Positions 7,886 to 47,313 of a DNA stretch of 64,000 bases are shown here, piece after piece. Each line of letters opens with the position of its first letter. Position 1 is the stretch's first letter. The DNA is taken from the NCBI RefSeq assembly GCF_000014425.1, contig NC_008530.1:806001-870000 (forward strand), in the 5' to 3' direction. This DNA comes from Lactobacillus gasseri ATCC 33323 = JCM 1131 (lineage in GTDB: Bacteria > Bacillota > Bacilli > Lactobacillales > Lactobacillaceae). Position numbers and translations under genes: made by a program. The notes under the pieces are model-generated. The model was given only the letters and a program-made list of their open reading frames with translations, ran no database searches and was not told the DNA's origin.

Positions 7886-9394
7886 ATGAAAAAAGACAAA
7901 TCCGTCAAAATTGGATTAAAAACTCTAGTTTTGATGATCTTTTCAGCCATTTTTGGCTTTAGCAATTCATTAACTGCCTATTATCAAATGGGGTATGCAA
8001 GTATTGTTTGGTATATTATAACCGCAATTTTATTCTTTTTGCCTTCTGCACTTATTTTTGCGGAATATGGAGCAGCTTTTAAGGGAGTTAAAGGTGGAAT
8101 TTTTTCTTGGCTTAAAGGATCAGTTAGTGAAAAAACTGCATTTATTGGTACTTTTATTTGGCTAGCTGCGTGGGTTGTTTGGCTGGTGTCATCGACTCAA
8201 TTTTTCTTGGTATCAGTGTCGACTGCAATTTCAGGTCATGATACAACGCAAAATTGGCATTTTTTAAACTTGTCATCGACACAATTATTGGGAATTTTAG
8301 AAGTAATATTTTTAGTAGTAGTGACTTTTTTTGCCGCTAAAGGTGTCGATAAAATTGCTGCTGTAAGTAATGTTGGTGGCTTTTTTACTTTAGCTATTAC
8401 AATTGGCTTTACTTTAGTATCTATTTTAGTTTTCTTTTTGAATCAAGGACATCTAGCAGAACCGTTGACTGTGCAATCATTAGTTCATTCTCCTAATCCG
8501 GCTTTCCAGTCTCCAATTGCTGTGGTGTCATTCATTGTTTATGCATTATTTGCTTATGGCGGTTTAGAAACTTCAGCGGGAGTAATTGATTCTGTTGATA
8601 AACCTGAAAAGACTTTTCCTAAAGCTTTGATTACAGCTATGGTCTGGATGACAGCTTTATATGTCTTGAATATTTTAATGTGTGGAGTTGCTGCAAATTG
8701 GAGTAGCGAATTAAGTGGCAAAAATGTTGATTTGGCCAATGTGGAATATGTTTTAATCAACAATTTGGGAGTAGAAACAGGAAAGGCTTTTGGACTTTCT
8801 CATTCAGCTTCCCTAACACTGGGTGCTACATTTTCTCGTTTTGCCGGATTAGCTGATGTATTGGCTGGAATTTCAGCAGCATTTTTAATGGTTTATTCAC
8901 CTGTTAAATCGTTTATTGAAGGTTGTGATCCTAAACTTTTACCTAAAAACTTGGTTAAATTGAATAAACATGGCATGCCAGAACGTTCAATGTGGGTTCA
9001 GGCGGTGATTGTTAGTGTTATTATCTTATTTATTTCTTTTGGTGGTAATGCAGCAGGTCAGTTTTATACTATTTTGATGGATATGATGAATGTTTCATCG
9101 TCAGCACCTTACTTATTTTTGATTGGAGCTTATCCTTTCTTTAAGATGAAGCAAGGAATTGATCGTCCATTTGTATTTATTGAGGGAAAGAAGCGTGTCT
9201 GGACGGTAACAATTGTAGTTTGGCTTGTAGTTGCAATTGGTATTATCTTTACTTGTGTTGAGCCACTCTTTACTGGAGATTATGCAACATCCTTCTGGAC
9301 TGCTATTGGACCAGTAGCCTTTGGAATTATTGCTTGGGTATATTATTCATATCAAGAAAGAAAAAGCATTACTGTAGTGGATGAAGAAGAATAA
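7886..9394 (+). CDS. APC-superfamily amino-acid permease (YjeM / glutamate:GABA antiporter-like)
   Basis: Polytopic membrane protein of 502 aa with about 12 hydrophobic segments. It has the APC-type first helix (LVLMIFSAIFGFSNSLTAYYQMG) and a later FAYGGLETSAGVIDSVDKPEKTFPKA loop typical of this superfamily. The overall pattern resembles the YjeM-like branch that transports glutamate, GABA or related amino acids, but the substrate cannot be read from sequence. AAAGAGGGAG lies upstream, with 15-20 nt to the ATG, which is longer than usual. It is convergent with cls and shares a terminator with it. Confidence 0.85.
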   Translation: MKKDKSVKIGLKTLVLMIFSAIFGFSNSLTAYYQMGYASIVWYIITAILFFLPSALIFAEYGAAFKGVKGGIFSWLKGSVSEKTAFIGTFIWLAAWVVWLVSSTQFFLVSVSTAISGHDTTQNWHFLNLSSTQLLGILEVIFLVVVTFFAAKGVDKIAAVSNVGGFFTLAITIGFTLVSILVFFLNQGHLAEPLTVQSLVHSPNPAFQSPIAVVSFIVYALFAYGGLETSAGVIDSVDKPEKTFPKALITAMVWMTALYVLNILMCGVAANWSSELSGKNVDLANVEYVLINNLGVETGKAFGLSHSASLTLGATFSRFAGLADVLAGISAAFLMVYSPVKSFIEGCDPKLLPKNLVKLNKHGMPERSMWVQAVIVSVIILFISFGGNAAGQFYTILMDMMNVSSSAPYLFLIGAYPFFKMKQGIDRPFVFIEGKKRVWTVTIVVWLVVAIGIIFTCVEPLFTGDYATSFWTAIGPVAFGIIAWVYYSYQERKSITVVDEEE

Positions 9395-11076: not shown

Positions 11077-12033
11077 ATGGCAACTTTAGAGCAACCATAC
11101 TTGGATTTACTAAATAAAATTATGATTGAAGGTCATGATAAGGAAGATAGAACTGGCACGGGGACAAGAAGTATATTTGGAGCTCAAATGCGGTTTAATC
11201 TGAGTGAGGGTTTTCCTATTTTAACTACTAAACGAGTTCCTTTTGGTCTTATTAAAAGTGAATTGTTGTGGTTTTTAAGAGGAGATACTAATATTCGGTT
11301 TCTATTAGAACACAATAATCATATTTGGGATGAATGGGCGTTCAAAAACTGGGTTGAAAGTGATGAATATCATGGCCCTGATATGACTAATTTTGGACTC
11401 AGAAGTCAAGAAGACGCCAAATTTAAGCAAGTCTATCAAGAAGAGATGAAGAAATTTGATGAGCGAATCTTAGCTGACCGGGATTTCGCAGTCAAATTTG
11501 GTAATCTTGGAGATGTTTATGGCGCTCAATGGCGTCACTGGCAAAAGCGAGAGGGTGGTTTTATTGATCAAATTCAAAATGTGATTGATCAAATTAAAAA
11601 GACGCCATATTCAAGAAGATTGATTGTTAGTGCCTGGAATCCAGAAGATGTACCAAATTCAGCACTCCCACCTTGTCATGTTTTATTTCAATTTTATGTT
11701 AATGATGGTCGTTTAAGCGTTCAGCTTTATCAGCGATCAGGAGATATGTTTTTAGGAGTTCCCTTTAATATTGCGAGCTATTCTTTACTAGTTAATTTAA
11801 TTGCTCAAGAAACTGGTCTTAAACCAGGTGAATTTATTCATACTTTAGGGGATGCGCATATTTATCGAAACCATTTTGATCAAGTAAAAGAATTATTGAC
11901 TAGAAAACCATATGACTCGCCAAAGCTTTGGCTAAATCCTGATAAGAAAAAGATTGAAGACTTTGAAATGTCAGATATTAAACTCGTTGACTATAAGCAT
12001 CATGGTACTATTAAAGCTCCCGTAGCTGTTTAG
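11077..12033 (+). CDS. thyA: Thymidylate synthase
   Basis: Converts dUMP to dTMP with methylenetetrahydrofolate, producing dihydrofolate for the reductase encoded next. The 318-aa product has the lactobacillus-type insertion near residues 90-140. The catalytic Cys lies in [14 protein letters not shown], and [17 protein letters not shown] and [12 protein letters not shown] are canonical. A TATAAT at 11046-11051 is the probable -10. The ribosome site is a weak GAAAG-rich stretch. folA starts 25 bp downstream, so the two are co-transcribed, which suits the coupled folate cycle. Confidence 0.98.
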
Positions 12034-44356: not shown

Positions 44357-46210
44357 ATGATGAAGATGGAAAAAAGAACTGATTATGCTGGTAATATAAC
44401 TAGCGAATACGAAGGACAAGAAGTAAACCTTTATGGTTGGGTACAACGCGTACGTAATTTAGGTAACTTGGTATTTATCGACCTCCGTGATCGTGAAGGT
44501 ATTGTTCAAGTTGTTGTTAATAAAGATTCTGGTAAAGAATTAATGGATATTGCCGATTCTCTTAACAATGAAGACGTAATTGAAGTTAAGGGTAAGGTTG
44601 TTAAGCGTTCTAGCGTAAACCCAGACATGAAGACTGGTGAAGTTGAAGTTGACGCAACTGAAATTGATGTTTTAAATAAGTCAAAGGTACCACCTTTTGA
44701 AATCAAAGATGATATCAATGCAGCCGAGCAAACTAGATTGAAGTATCGCTACCTTGATTTACGTCGCCCAACTTTACAAAAAGCAATTATGCTTCGTTCA
44801 AAGATTTTAAAGGCAACTCACGAATATTTTGATGAAAATGGCTTTATTGATATTGAAACTCCAATCTTAGGTAAGTCTTCTCCAGAAGGTGCGCGTGACT
44901 ACCTTGTTCCATCAAGAATTTACCCAGGTAGCTTTTATGCACTTCCTCAATCACCACAATTATTTAAGCAATTATTAATGGGTGCTGGTTTTGATAAGTA
45001 TTACCAATTAGCACGTTGCTTCCGTGACGAAGATTTGCGTGGTGATCGTCAACCTGAATTTACGCAAATTGATATGGAAACATCATTCACTGATGAAAAA
45101 CAAGTTCAAGACTATACTGAAGGTCTTTTGAAGAAGATCATGAAAGATGTAATGGGAATTGACTTGAAGACGCCAATCAAGCGTATTACTTGGGATGAAG
45201 CAATGAACAAGTATGGTTCTGATAAGCCAGATACTCGCTACGAAATGTTTATTCATGACTTAAGCCCAATCTTTAAGGATTCTGACTTCAAGGTCTTCTC
45301 TGGTGCAATTGCTGACGGCGGTTACGTAAAGGGAATTGCTGTTAAGAATGGTGCTAAGCAATATTCACGTAAGAAGATTGAAGAAAAACAAGATTACATC
45401 AAGCGTTACCACGCTAAGGGATTGGCATGGGTTAAATATGAAGATGGCGAGTTCTCAGGACCTGTTTCTCGTTTCTTAACTGATGAAAATAAAGAAGCTT
45501 TGAAGAAGGAATTTGACCTTGAAGGCGGCGAATTAGTAGTATTTGTTGCTGATAAGTGGAAGGTTGTAACTGATTCTCTAGACCATTTACGTCGTGAATT
45601 TGCGAAGGAAACTGGAATTATTCCAGAAAATGTTTACGACTTTGTTTGGGTTGTTGACTGGCCACTATTTGAATATGATGAAGGTCTAGGTCGCTGGATT
45701 GCTGCTCACCACCCATTTACTATGCCAGATGATGAAGGAATTAAGTTGCTTGATACTGATCCACACAAGGCTCATGCACGTTCATACGATATTGTTATGA
45801 ATGGGGATGAAATGGGTGGCGGATCAATCCGTATTCACAAACGTTCAATTCAAGAAAAGATGTTTAAGGCACTTGGCTTTACTAAGAAGCGTGCTTATGA
45901 ACAATTTGGGTACTTACTTGATGCTTTAGATATGGGATTCCCACCACATGCTGGTCTTGCAATCGGATTAGACAGATTTGCTATGATGTTAGCTCAAAAG
46001 GACAACATTCGTGACGTAACTGCCTTTCCAAAGAATGCATCTGCTTCAGAACCAATGATGCATGCTCCAGCACCGGTTGCTGATCAACAATTAGATGATA
46101 TTGGTATCAAAGTAGAAGACAAGTATGAAGACAGCGTTAAAGAAATTGAAGCACGCCTTGAAAAGGAAGCTCAAGAAGACGCTGATAAGAATTCAACTTG
46201 GGATGAATAA
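44357..46210 (+). CDS. aspS: Aspartyl-tRNA synthetase
   Basis: Class IIb synthetase of 617 aa. An N-terminal OB-fold anticodon-binding domain ([31 protein letters not shown]) leads into the catalytic domain with [32 protein letters not shown] (motif 2), the bacterial GAD insertion, and [13 protein letters not shown] (motif 3). The first of three clustered ATGs (44357, 44360, 44366) is spaced about 9 nt from GAGG and is used here. It is the second gene of the T-box-controlled hisS-aspS operon. Confidence 0.98.
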
Positions 46211-46224
46211 AAACTAGTTTAATC

Positions 46225-46270
46225 AAAAAGAGTAAGGATTATTTTTGAGAGATAGTCCTTACTCTTTTTT
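46225..46270 (+). terminator. Terminator after aspS
   Basis: AAAAAGAGTAAGGA pairs with TCCTTACTCTTTTT, 17-nt loop. Confidence 0.9.
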
Positions 46271-46339
46271 GATTGGCTGAAACTAAATAAAAATGATAAT
46301 ATTAAACTTGAAGATTGTTGTAATGACGGGATTTGTTTA

Positions 46340-46429
46340 GTATTCTCCACGTATGTGGAGATGATCCTAGTGAAAAAACATTGATTAACGGTACTGTTGT
46401 TTATTCTCCACACCACGTAGATCCATCAA
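46340..46429 (+). CRISPR. Relic minimal type I-E CRISPR: one intact repeat, one spacer, one degenerate repeat
   Basis: A 29-nt repeat at 46340-46368 begins GTATTCTCCACGTATGTGGA and ends GATGATCCT, with an internal TCCAC/GTGGA hairpin. It has the form of the lactobacillus type I-E repeat (the Ldbu1-like / L. acidophilus family, from memory) with the ATGATCCT-type 5' handle. A 32-nt spacer (46369-46400) follows, then a second copy at 46401-46429 that keeps TATTCTCCAC and then decays. The 61-nt period is exactly that of type I-E arrays. The AT-rich 70 bp upstream, ending in GATTTGTTTA, resembles a leader end. No cas genes are in the window. Confidence 0.75.
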
Positions 46430-46467
46430 AAAAAGGATGTTTCCATGCACCAGAAACATCCTTTTTA
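46428..46467. terminator. Hairpin terminator for the Ig-like protein gene and possibly the CRISPR transcript
   Basis: GGATGTTTC (46435-46443) pairs with GAAACATCC (46453-46461), 9-nt loop, with poly-A before and poly-T after, so it can act in both directions. Confidence 0.85.
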
Positions 46468-46473
46468 AAATAT

Positions 46474-47313
46474 CTATTTACCAATCAATTGCTGAAAATC
46501 GCTAACTAACTTTTGGAAAGTTGCATTCAAATTTTGCATAAATTCATTTTGATTATTTTTCATTTGATTCAACAAAGAATCAGCTTGATTTGGATTTTGC
46601 TTGATCTGATCAATTGTAGAACCTAATTGATCAATTTGATTTTGTAAAGCTTGATTATTAGCTGCATTATTTTTCAATTGCTGATTTTCATTCTTGATTT
46701 GATCTAATTGATTCTGTAATTCTTCCTTATTTTGATCCTGTTTATAATTATTGATAGCATTCTGCAACTCTTTATTTTGTTGCATTAGTTGCTTATTTTG
46801 CTCAGATAAATTATCTAGTTTGCTATTTGTATTATTGAGCGCATTACTTTGAGCTTGCTCATTTTGAACAGTGTCATTATGTGCTTGGCAAGCAGAAATC
46901 CCAAAAATAATTGCAATTAGTAATACAAGAACGCCAAGTACAATATAGACACCTTTTTTCTTACTTTTCTTTTTTGGACTAGGTGTTTGAGCTGGTGTCT
47001 TATATTGTGGAGCAGGAGTTGGACGGACCGGGGGTCTATCGTTGCTACTTACATTATTCTTATCAGTGACCCAGGCTTGAATTTTCTTAGTTGCATATTC
47101 ATTATTAGAACCGATTGCAGTGATGATTATCGGATAAACGCCTGCTTCTGAACGGTTAACAGCCTTTTTATTAATACTTAAATTGTCATTTGAAATGAGC
47201 TGTCCATTTTCAGTTACAGTTAACTCTAATTGAGAAATTATCTCTTGGTTAGTTAAGTTTTGATTTAGTGGCCATGTGATAGAATCAACACGGGTATTAA
47301 TTTGCAAAGTCAT
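46474..47313 (-). CDS. Membrane protein with N-terminal Ig-like domain and C-terminal Asn/Gln-rich coiled coil
   Basis: 279 aa, family not recognised. Residues 1-90 look like a bacterial Ig-like/cadherin-like beta domain (VDSITWPLNQNLTNQEI...VTENGQLI...AGVYPIIITAIGSNNEYATKKIQAWV). A Pro-rich linker and a basic KKKSKKKG precede one transmembrane helix (VYIVLGVLVLLIAIIFG) that ends in ISACQ, a lipobox-like sequence. Then comes a long Asn/Gln coiled coil to the end. There is no N-terminal signal peptide, and the positive charges predict the Ig-like part inside and the coiled coil outside, which is unusual. It stands alone, with GAAGGAAA before the ATG. Confidence 0.7.
   Translation of the reverse strand: MTLQINTRVDSITWPLNQNLTNQEIISQLELTVTENGQLISNDNLSINKKAVNRSEAGVYPIIITAIGSNNEYATKKIQAWVTDKNNVSSNDRPPVRPTPAPQYKTPAQTPSPKKKSKKKGVYIVLGVLVLLIAIIFGISACQAHNDTVQNEQAQSNALNNTNSKLDNLSEQNKQLMQQNKELQNAINNYKQDQNKEELQNQLDQIKNENQQLKNNAANNQALQNQIDQLGSTIDQIKQNPNQADSLLNQMKNNQNEFMQNLNATFQKLVSDFQQLIGK

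Follow-up and report, generated by a model that had tools for sequence, protein, structure and literature searches.

A probable hybrid CRISPR relic beside aspS in Lactobacillus gasseri, at one end of a proposed inversion of about 281 kb

The window considered here is a stretch of 64,000 nucleotides of the Lactobacillus gasseri ATCC 33323 chromosome (NC_008530.1, positions 806,001 to 870,000), and it was compared with 75 genomes of the same genus, one per species, denoted by G numbers. A CRISPR relic is situated between the aspartyl-tRNA synthetase gene aspS and a convergent gene, below the 46474 gene, whose product has only sub-cut-off matches in Pfam (Table 1). The initial annotation had described a repeat, a 32-nt spacer and a degenerate second repeat at 46340-46429, and all of these are real. 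A consensus terminator scan made no call at either of the hairpins flanking the relic (46225-46269 and 46430-46466). Four Rfam matches to microRNA families, all under the gathering score, fall on these two hairpins and were rejected. An open reading frame spanning the relic on the minus strand (46219-46416) has no Pfam match and was taken as a chance frame.

Table 1. Features of the relic, its surroundings and the second junction (window positions unless marked as genome positions)
Feature	Position	Strand	Basis
aspS (aspartyl-tRNA synthetase), left neighbour, locus A	44357..46210	+	Pfam tRNA-synt_2 1.3e-119, GAD, OB-fold
Hairpin 3' of aspS, 18-nt arms, 94% complementary, terminator-like by eye	46225..46269	.	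inverted repeat I2
Leader A, last 60 nt, ending TTTAGT	46282..46341	+	similarity to other leaders
Intact repeat, probably type I-E, locus A kind (ATGATCC handle)	46340..46368	+	29/29 to G020 array A repeats; hairpin -10.7 kcal/mol
32-nt spacer	46369..46400	+	length
Degenerate trailer-end repeat, probable locus B origin	46401..46429	+	homology to locus B of G020 and G033
Hairpin, 14-nt perfect arms, between relic and 46474 gene, terminator-like by eye, locus B side	46430..46466	.	inverted repeat I6
46474 gene, 279 aa, coiled-coil-like, right neighbour, convergent, locus B	46474..47313	-	homologues near htpX
Aminotransferase gene (locus A side), now beside htpX	genome 1,131,937-1,133,346	-	
htpX	genome 1,133,561-1,134,542		

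The first unit, GTATTCTCCACGTATGTGGAGATGATCCT, is 29 nt long and is predicted to fold into an RNA hairpin whose energy was equalled by none of 200 shuffles; no fold was obtained for the second unit. The pattern TATTCTCCACNNNNGTGGAGNTGATCC, at up to three mismatches, has one match in the window, none in 100 shuffles, and one in the whole genome of 1,894,360 bp. The repeat is therefore not a generic dispersed one, a possibility that had been raised in the initial annotation. The second unit has the exact stretch TATTCTCCAC in common with the first. The 61-nt spacing holds, and only the first repeat is intact, the second being decayed. By itself, the spacing of two units is modest support for CRISPR in this AT-rich window, where in-register runs of at least 10 nt at spacings of 60-62 occur at 40 of 63,880 overlapping positions. 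Compared with the repeat, the second unit has a score of 8, which none of 3000 shuffles reach. The counterpart of this unit in G020 is TATTCTCCACACCACGTGGAGTCATC, with the stretch TATTCTCCACACCACGT in common, and scores 12 (0/3000 shuffles), and that in G033 scores 4 (7/3000). Homology to these relatives decides that the second unit is a decayed trailer-end repeat common to all three genomes, in agreement with the earlier description of a terminal repeat degenerate at the trailer end.

The repeat is preceded by a leader, recognised by its similarity to nine of the ten leaders compared. It agrees with the leader of the orthologous locus in G020 at 51 of 60 positions, and with eight further leaders at 34-42 of 60; in each of these comparisons none of 5000 shuffles scored as high. 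The similarity to the second leader of G033 (leader B), 20/60, is at the chance level (2098/5000 shuffles). Orthologues of aspS precede the same leader in G020 and G033. In G020 the leader end ...TTTAGT is followed by GTATTC, and the border in the window lacks two bases (GT). A promoter-like site at 46273-46300 overlaps the leader; two such sites were found against a shuffle mean of 1.5, and promoter-like sites are no commoner here than in shuffles.

The repeat pattern, with at most two mismatches, was observed in 25 of the 75 genomes, and Cse1 (PF09481) in 24. The exact ATGATCC variant was found in one stretch of the GTDB species collection, from Candidatus Lactobacillus pullistercoris, in a search that may omit records of the genome itself and of close relatives. 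Downstream of aspS in G020 the same leader is followed by 15 repeats with a period of 61-62 nt and then by a degenerate terminal one. Lactobacillus phage records contain matches to five of this array's spacers with E values no higher than 0.02, and one of the five is identical to prophage Lj928 at 32 of 32 positions; therefore this locus would once have been a working memory. The window repeat differs from the repeats of the main array of G023 by one mismatch (A for G), and the G023 locus is of type I-E by its cas genes. Homology to such intact loci thus indicates that the window repeat and leader are of type I-E, as initially proposed. The relic resembles Lactobacillus type I-E CRISPR-Cas systems in repeat, leader and 61-nt period. 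It differs from them in having one intact repeat and one spacer, in its halves, which seem to come from two loci, and in the cas genes, since Cse1 and Cas1 were not found and no Cas3 exceeded the cut-off. Type I-E systems were reported in 12 of 13 new isolates of L. gasseri in the excerpts available of one study (PMC6998098).

No credible target of the spacer was found. Among 50,697 phage records, 51 had matches at E up to 10, the best at E 0.9. Enterobacterial phages, with 85-89% identity over 26-27 nt, make up the 20 that were listed; three of the 51, outside these 20, are Lactobacillus or Lactiplantibacillus phages. Plasmids yielded 18 matches in 72,556 records, none credible (best E 0.7 over 19 nt), one of them in an L. 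paragasseri plasmid (90.9% over 22 nt, E 9). With up to three mismatches the spacer occurs in one of the 75 genus genomes, as the relic itself, and exact pieces of 23, 21 and 20 nt had no matches in IMG/VR (0, 0 and 0).

Alignment with G020 and G033 divides the relic between two chromosomal loci. Locus A is the interval between aspS and an aminotransferase gene, and it would have supplied aspS, the leader and the first repeat. Locus B is the interval between htpX and the 46474 gene, the probable source of the degenerate repeat, the following hairpin and the 46474 gene. The window aligns with locus A of G020 up to position 46367 (90.5% identity) and with that of G033, which has no array left there, up to 46320 (94.3%). 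The rest of the alignment is with locus B in reverse orientation, starting at 46401 for G020 and at 46404 for G033; the hairpin at 46430-46466 is present in locus B of both. The distance between the two loci is about 336 kb in G020 and 313 kb in G033, and their orientations are opposite. The halves of the relic thus come from separate CRISPR loci that an inversion has brought together.

The other product of this event is the interval near 1,133.47 kb, which separates the aminotransferase gene from htpX. It contains a leader of the locus B kind, one repeat-like unit beginning at 1,133,468 on the minus strand, and the trailer of array A, the latter agreeing with G020 at 41 of 60 positions. This leader agrees with ten other leaders at 33-51 of 60 positions, at most one of 5000 shuffles scoring as high, the agreement with G033 leader B being 33/60 (1/5000). 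CRISPR sequence is therefore present at both junctions, at 46282-46429 of the window and at about 1,133,440-1,133,530 of the genome. Inside the segment, at 985-1000 kb, the best-scoring matches are reversed in G020 and G033, and weaker matches, most of 66-83% identity, lie elsewhere on the other strand. Given both junctions and the reversed interior matches, about 281 kb (from ~852.4 to ~1,133.5 kb) are inverted relative to these genomes. Both stubs are eroded, so that the crossover cannot be placed, and the repeat-like unit may be a whole trailer repeat of array A or a chimera.

The direction of the change is suggested by the other genomes. Among the matches listed, aspS and the aminotransferase gene lie in this order on one strand and within 3 kb of each other in at least 46 of 75 genomes, in 43 with a gap and in three as a single unbroken match. 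They are on one strand and 3.4-9.5 kb apart in three genomes (G006, G037, G065), on different contigs in two (G004, G062), and on opposite strands of one contig in the genome with the relic; in 23 others one of the two pieces is absent among the matches listed. Similarly, htpX and the homologue of the 46474 gene share a strand in eight other genomes (G020, G022, G023, G033, G058, G059, G069, G070), where they are either adjacent or separated by up to about 13 kb; in G067 they are on different contigs. Since aspS and the aminotransferase gene are neighbours in 46 of 75 genomes, the order in the relic genome is the derived one. The segment is reversed relative to the relatives and the outgroups polarise the change, so the inversion arose in the line of the relic genome.

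The interval between htpX and the 46474 homologue in G023 contains arrays and eight cas genes, with NCBIfam matches to Cas3, Cse1, Cse2, Cas7, Cas5, Cas6e, Cas1e and Cas2e; Cse1, at 65.8 bits, is just below the NCBIfam cut-off of 70.05 and above that of Pfam. In this one annotated intact I-E locus of the kind, the cas genes are situated at htpX and not by aspS. In the relic genome Cse1 (PF09481) and Cas1 (PF01867) have no matches, and the best match of the Cas3 core reaches 49.3 bits against a cut-off of 102.45, the positive control G023 scoring 208.7. The Cas3 core exceeds the cut-off in one of nine genomes (G023). Five sub-cut-off Cas3 matches in the relic genome, in open frames of other lengths, were read as other helicases because they have equivalents in the relatives and the control genomes also give sub-cut-off matches. 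The initial suggestion that the cas genes were lost or lie elsewhere is thereby supported as regards loss of Cse1, Cas1 and Cas3, the three genes of the genome-wide search. G033 likewise has no Cse1 or Cas1 match; G020 has no Cse1 but has Cas1 at 903.3-904.0 kb, some 9-10 kb from locus B.

We therefore consider the relic to be, with a probability of about 0.88, a hybrid CRISPR stub at one junction of an inversion of about 281 kb, both ends of which lie in CRISPR loci. The ancestral chromosome would have had two type I-E loci in opposite orientation. One, A, would have been a satellite array with aspS and the aminotransferase gene as its neighbours; the other, B, would have been flanked by htpX and the 46474 gene, where the relative G023 still has a cas operon. 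Recombination between A and B, most likely a RecA-type exchange at common repeats, would have flipped the interval and swapped the ends. The product at aspS would be leader A, repeat, spacer and trailer repeat B, and that near 1,133.47 kb leader B, repeat and trailer A. The cas genes and most spacers would have been lost before or after the flip, and both hybrids presumably eroded. The stub seems to retain no immune function: being without cas genes, it is probably dead DNA, perhaps still transcribed from its leader. Several points weigh against this reading. Locus B of G020 is itself rearranged, with a mini-array and its leader of the B kind beyond htpX and with an additional stretch of about 390 bp separating htpX from the trailer repeat; leader B of G033 is not recognisably similar to leader A; the crossover cannot be placed; and each species is represented by a single genome.

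According to the initial annotation, one array had collapsed in place, and the relic would be what is left of a single orphan I-E array by aspS, reduced to one spacer and still holding its own trailer-end repeat. The leader, repeat, spacer and degenerate last repeat are indeed in the correct order, and G020 has a longer array at this site. However, the sequence from 46401 on corresponds to locus B of G020 and G033 and not to the trailer of array A, which this genome has at 1,133.4 kb, and the genomes examined show the aminotransferase gene next to aspS, not the 46474 gene. Synteny with G020 and G033 and the reciprocal junction thus assign the halves to two loci, and collapse in place is very improbable. 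That the relic resembles a CRISPR unit by chance is a negligible possibility, although only one unit is intact and the two-unit spacing is not rare in an AT-rich window: the repeat matches those of the 15-repeat array at the orthologous site at 29 of 29 positions, and the leader is conserved.

Both junctions lie inside repeats, as would be expected if contigs had been misjoined at CRISPR repeats and the inversion were false. Such an error is extremely improbable, as 29-nt repeats, of which there are few copies here, are short compared with usual reads, and the genome is a single contig, 99.98% complete. Inversions in this group are also in print, in the accessible part of one paper (PMC3080392). 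A real inversion might also have had another cause than recombination of repeats, namely breaks in the two CRISPR loci that arose through end-joining or through an action of Cas proteins (Cas1-Cas2 integration, self-targeting). The repeats are eroded and the crossover is not resolvable; moreover, 29 nt is a short repeat length for homologous recombination to be efficient, which counts against an exchange at repeats. On the other hand, the order of leader, repeat and trailer is kept at both junctions, as repeat exchange predicts, and breaks of this kind are quite unlikely. It is also unlikely that the I-E machinery itself, while it was still there, provoked the inversion, by half-site integration of Cas1-Cas2 or by self-targeting breaks at two arrays. 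If it did, the chromosome was remodelled by CRISPR immunity, which exchanged leaders between a pair of arrays before its own loss.

Neither relics of CRISPR arrays nor inversions linked to CRISPR are new, and the inversion proposed here adds a clean case. In Thermotogales, CRISPR loci are associated with inversion sites, according to an excerpt of a review (PMC5052741) that cites DeBoy 2006 and calls the exact role of the arrays unknown. The two cases are alike in that a large inversion has CRISPR sequence at its ends; unlike the Thermotogales case as given in that excerpt, both reciprocal hybrid junctions are recognisable here in one genome and outgroups polarise the event. Extracts of a second paper (PMC3080392) report X-shaped inversions across the terminus between species of this group of lactobacilli, and link ISLjo2 to a large inversion, symmetrical in form, in L. 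johnsonii. The latter is also a large inversion in the same group, but it is ascribed to 1,460-bp inverted repeats with an insertion element and not to CRISPR repeats. Among the records listed by searches of a partial literature collection, no title or beginning of an abstract describes a CRISPR-flanked inversion in L. gasseri.

As a relic, the locus is ordinary; it is more interesting as one of two matching inversion scars. Both exchange products are readable in one finished chromosome, as a pair of stubs whose leaders and trailers have changed places and a flip of about 281 kb between them, a record of how CRISPR loci can reshape a chromosome. The pair also cautions against taking every orphan CRISPR relic for a single collapsed locus, and shows that the flanks of a relic can polarise a rearrangement. 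It bears on the loss, in one L. gasseri strain, of the I-E system present in most of the newly sequenced isolates according to the available excerpts of PMC6998098.

Several minor observations concern the same loci in relatives. The G020 array (L051:5926-6872), with near-identical repeats and phage-matching spacers, is an orphan array that is still intact, in a genome with neither a Cse1 match nor a Cas3 match over the cut-off. In G033, locus A (L053, about 8190-8210) keeps part of the leader and then passes straight into the aminotransferase side; the array was probably deleted whole, a third fate of the site. G070 and G071 match G033 through locus A unbroken and therefore have no array there. 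Within this small group, locus A has the appearance of a satellite array. G020 has, in addition, a mini-array (L052:10442-10591) in which a leader similar to leader B is followed by one intact repeat, one spacer of 32 nt and one degenerate repeat; it is on the side of htpX opposite to the locus B trailer, a second rearrangement of this locus. In G023, Cas2e is fused to a DnaQ/DEDD-type exonuclease domain (L097:4632-5510). Finally, a lone putative 36-nt repeat of type II-A was observed in the relic genome at about 1,135,765-1,135,797 (L067, about 11766-11798). Over 32 nt it is about 97% similar to repeats of G020 (L052, from 16962 on), which are spaced mostly by 66 nt and have Cas1 nearby. The relic genome may thus contain remains of two types of CRISPR, separated by 2.3 kb.
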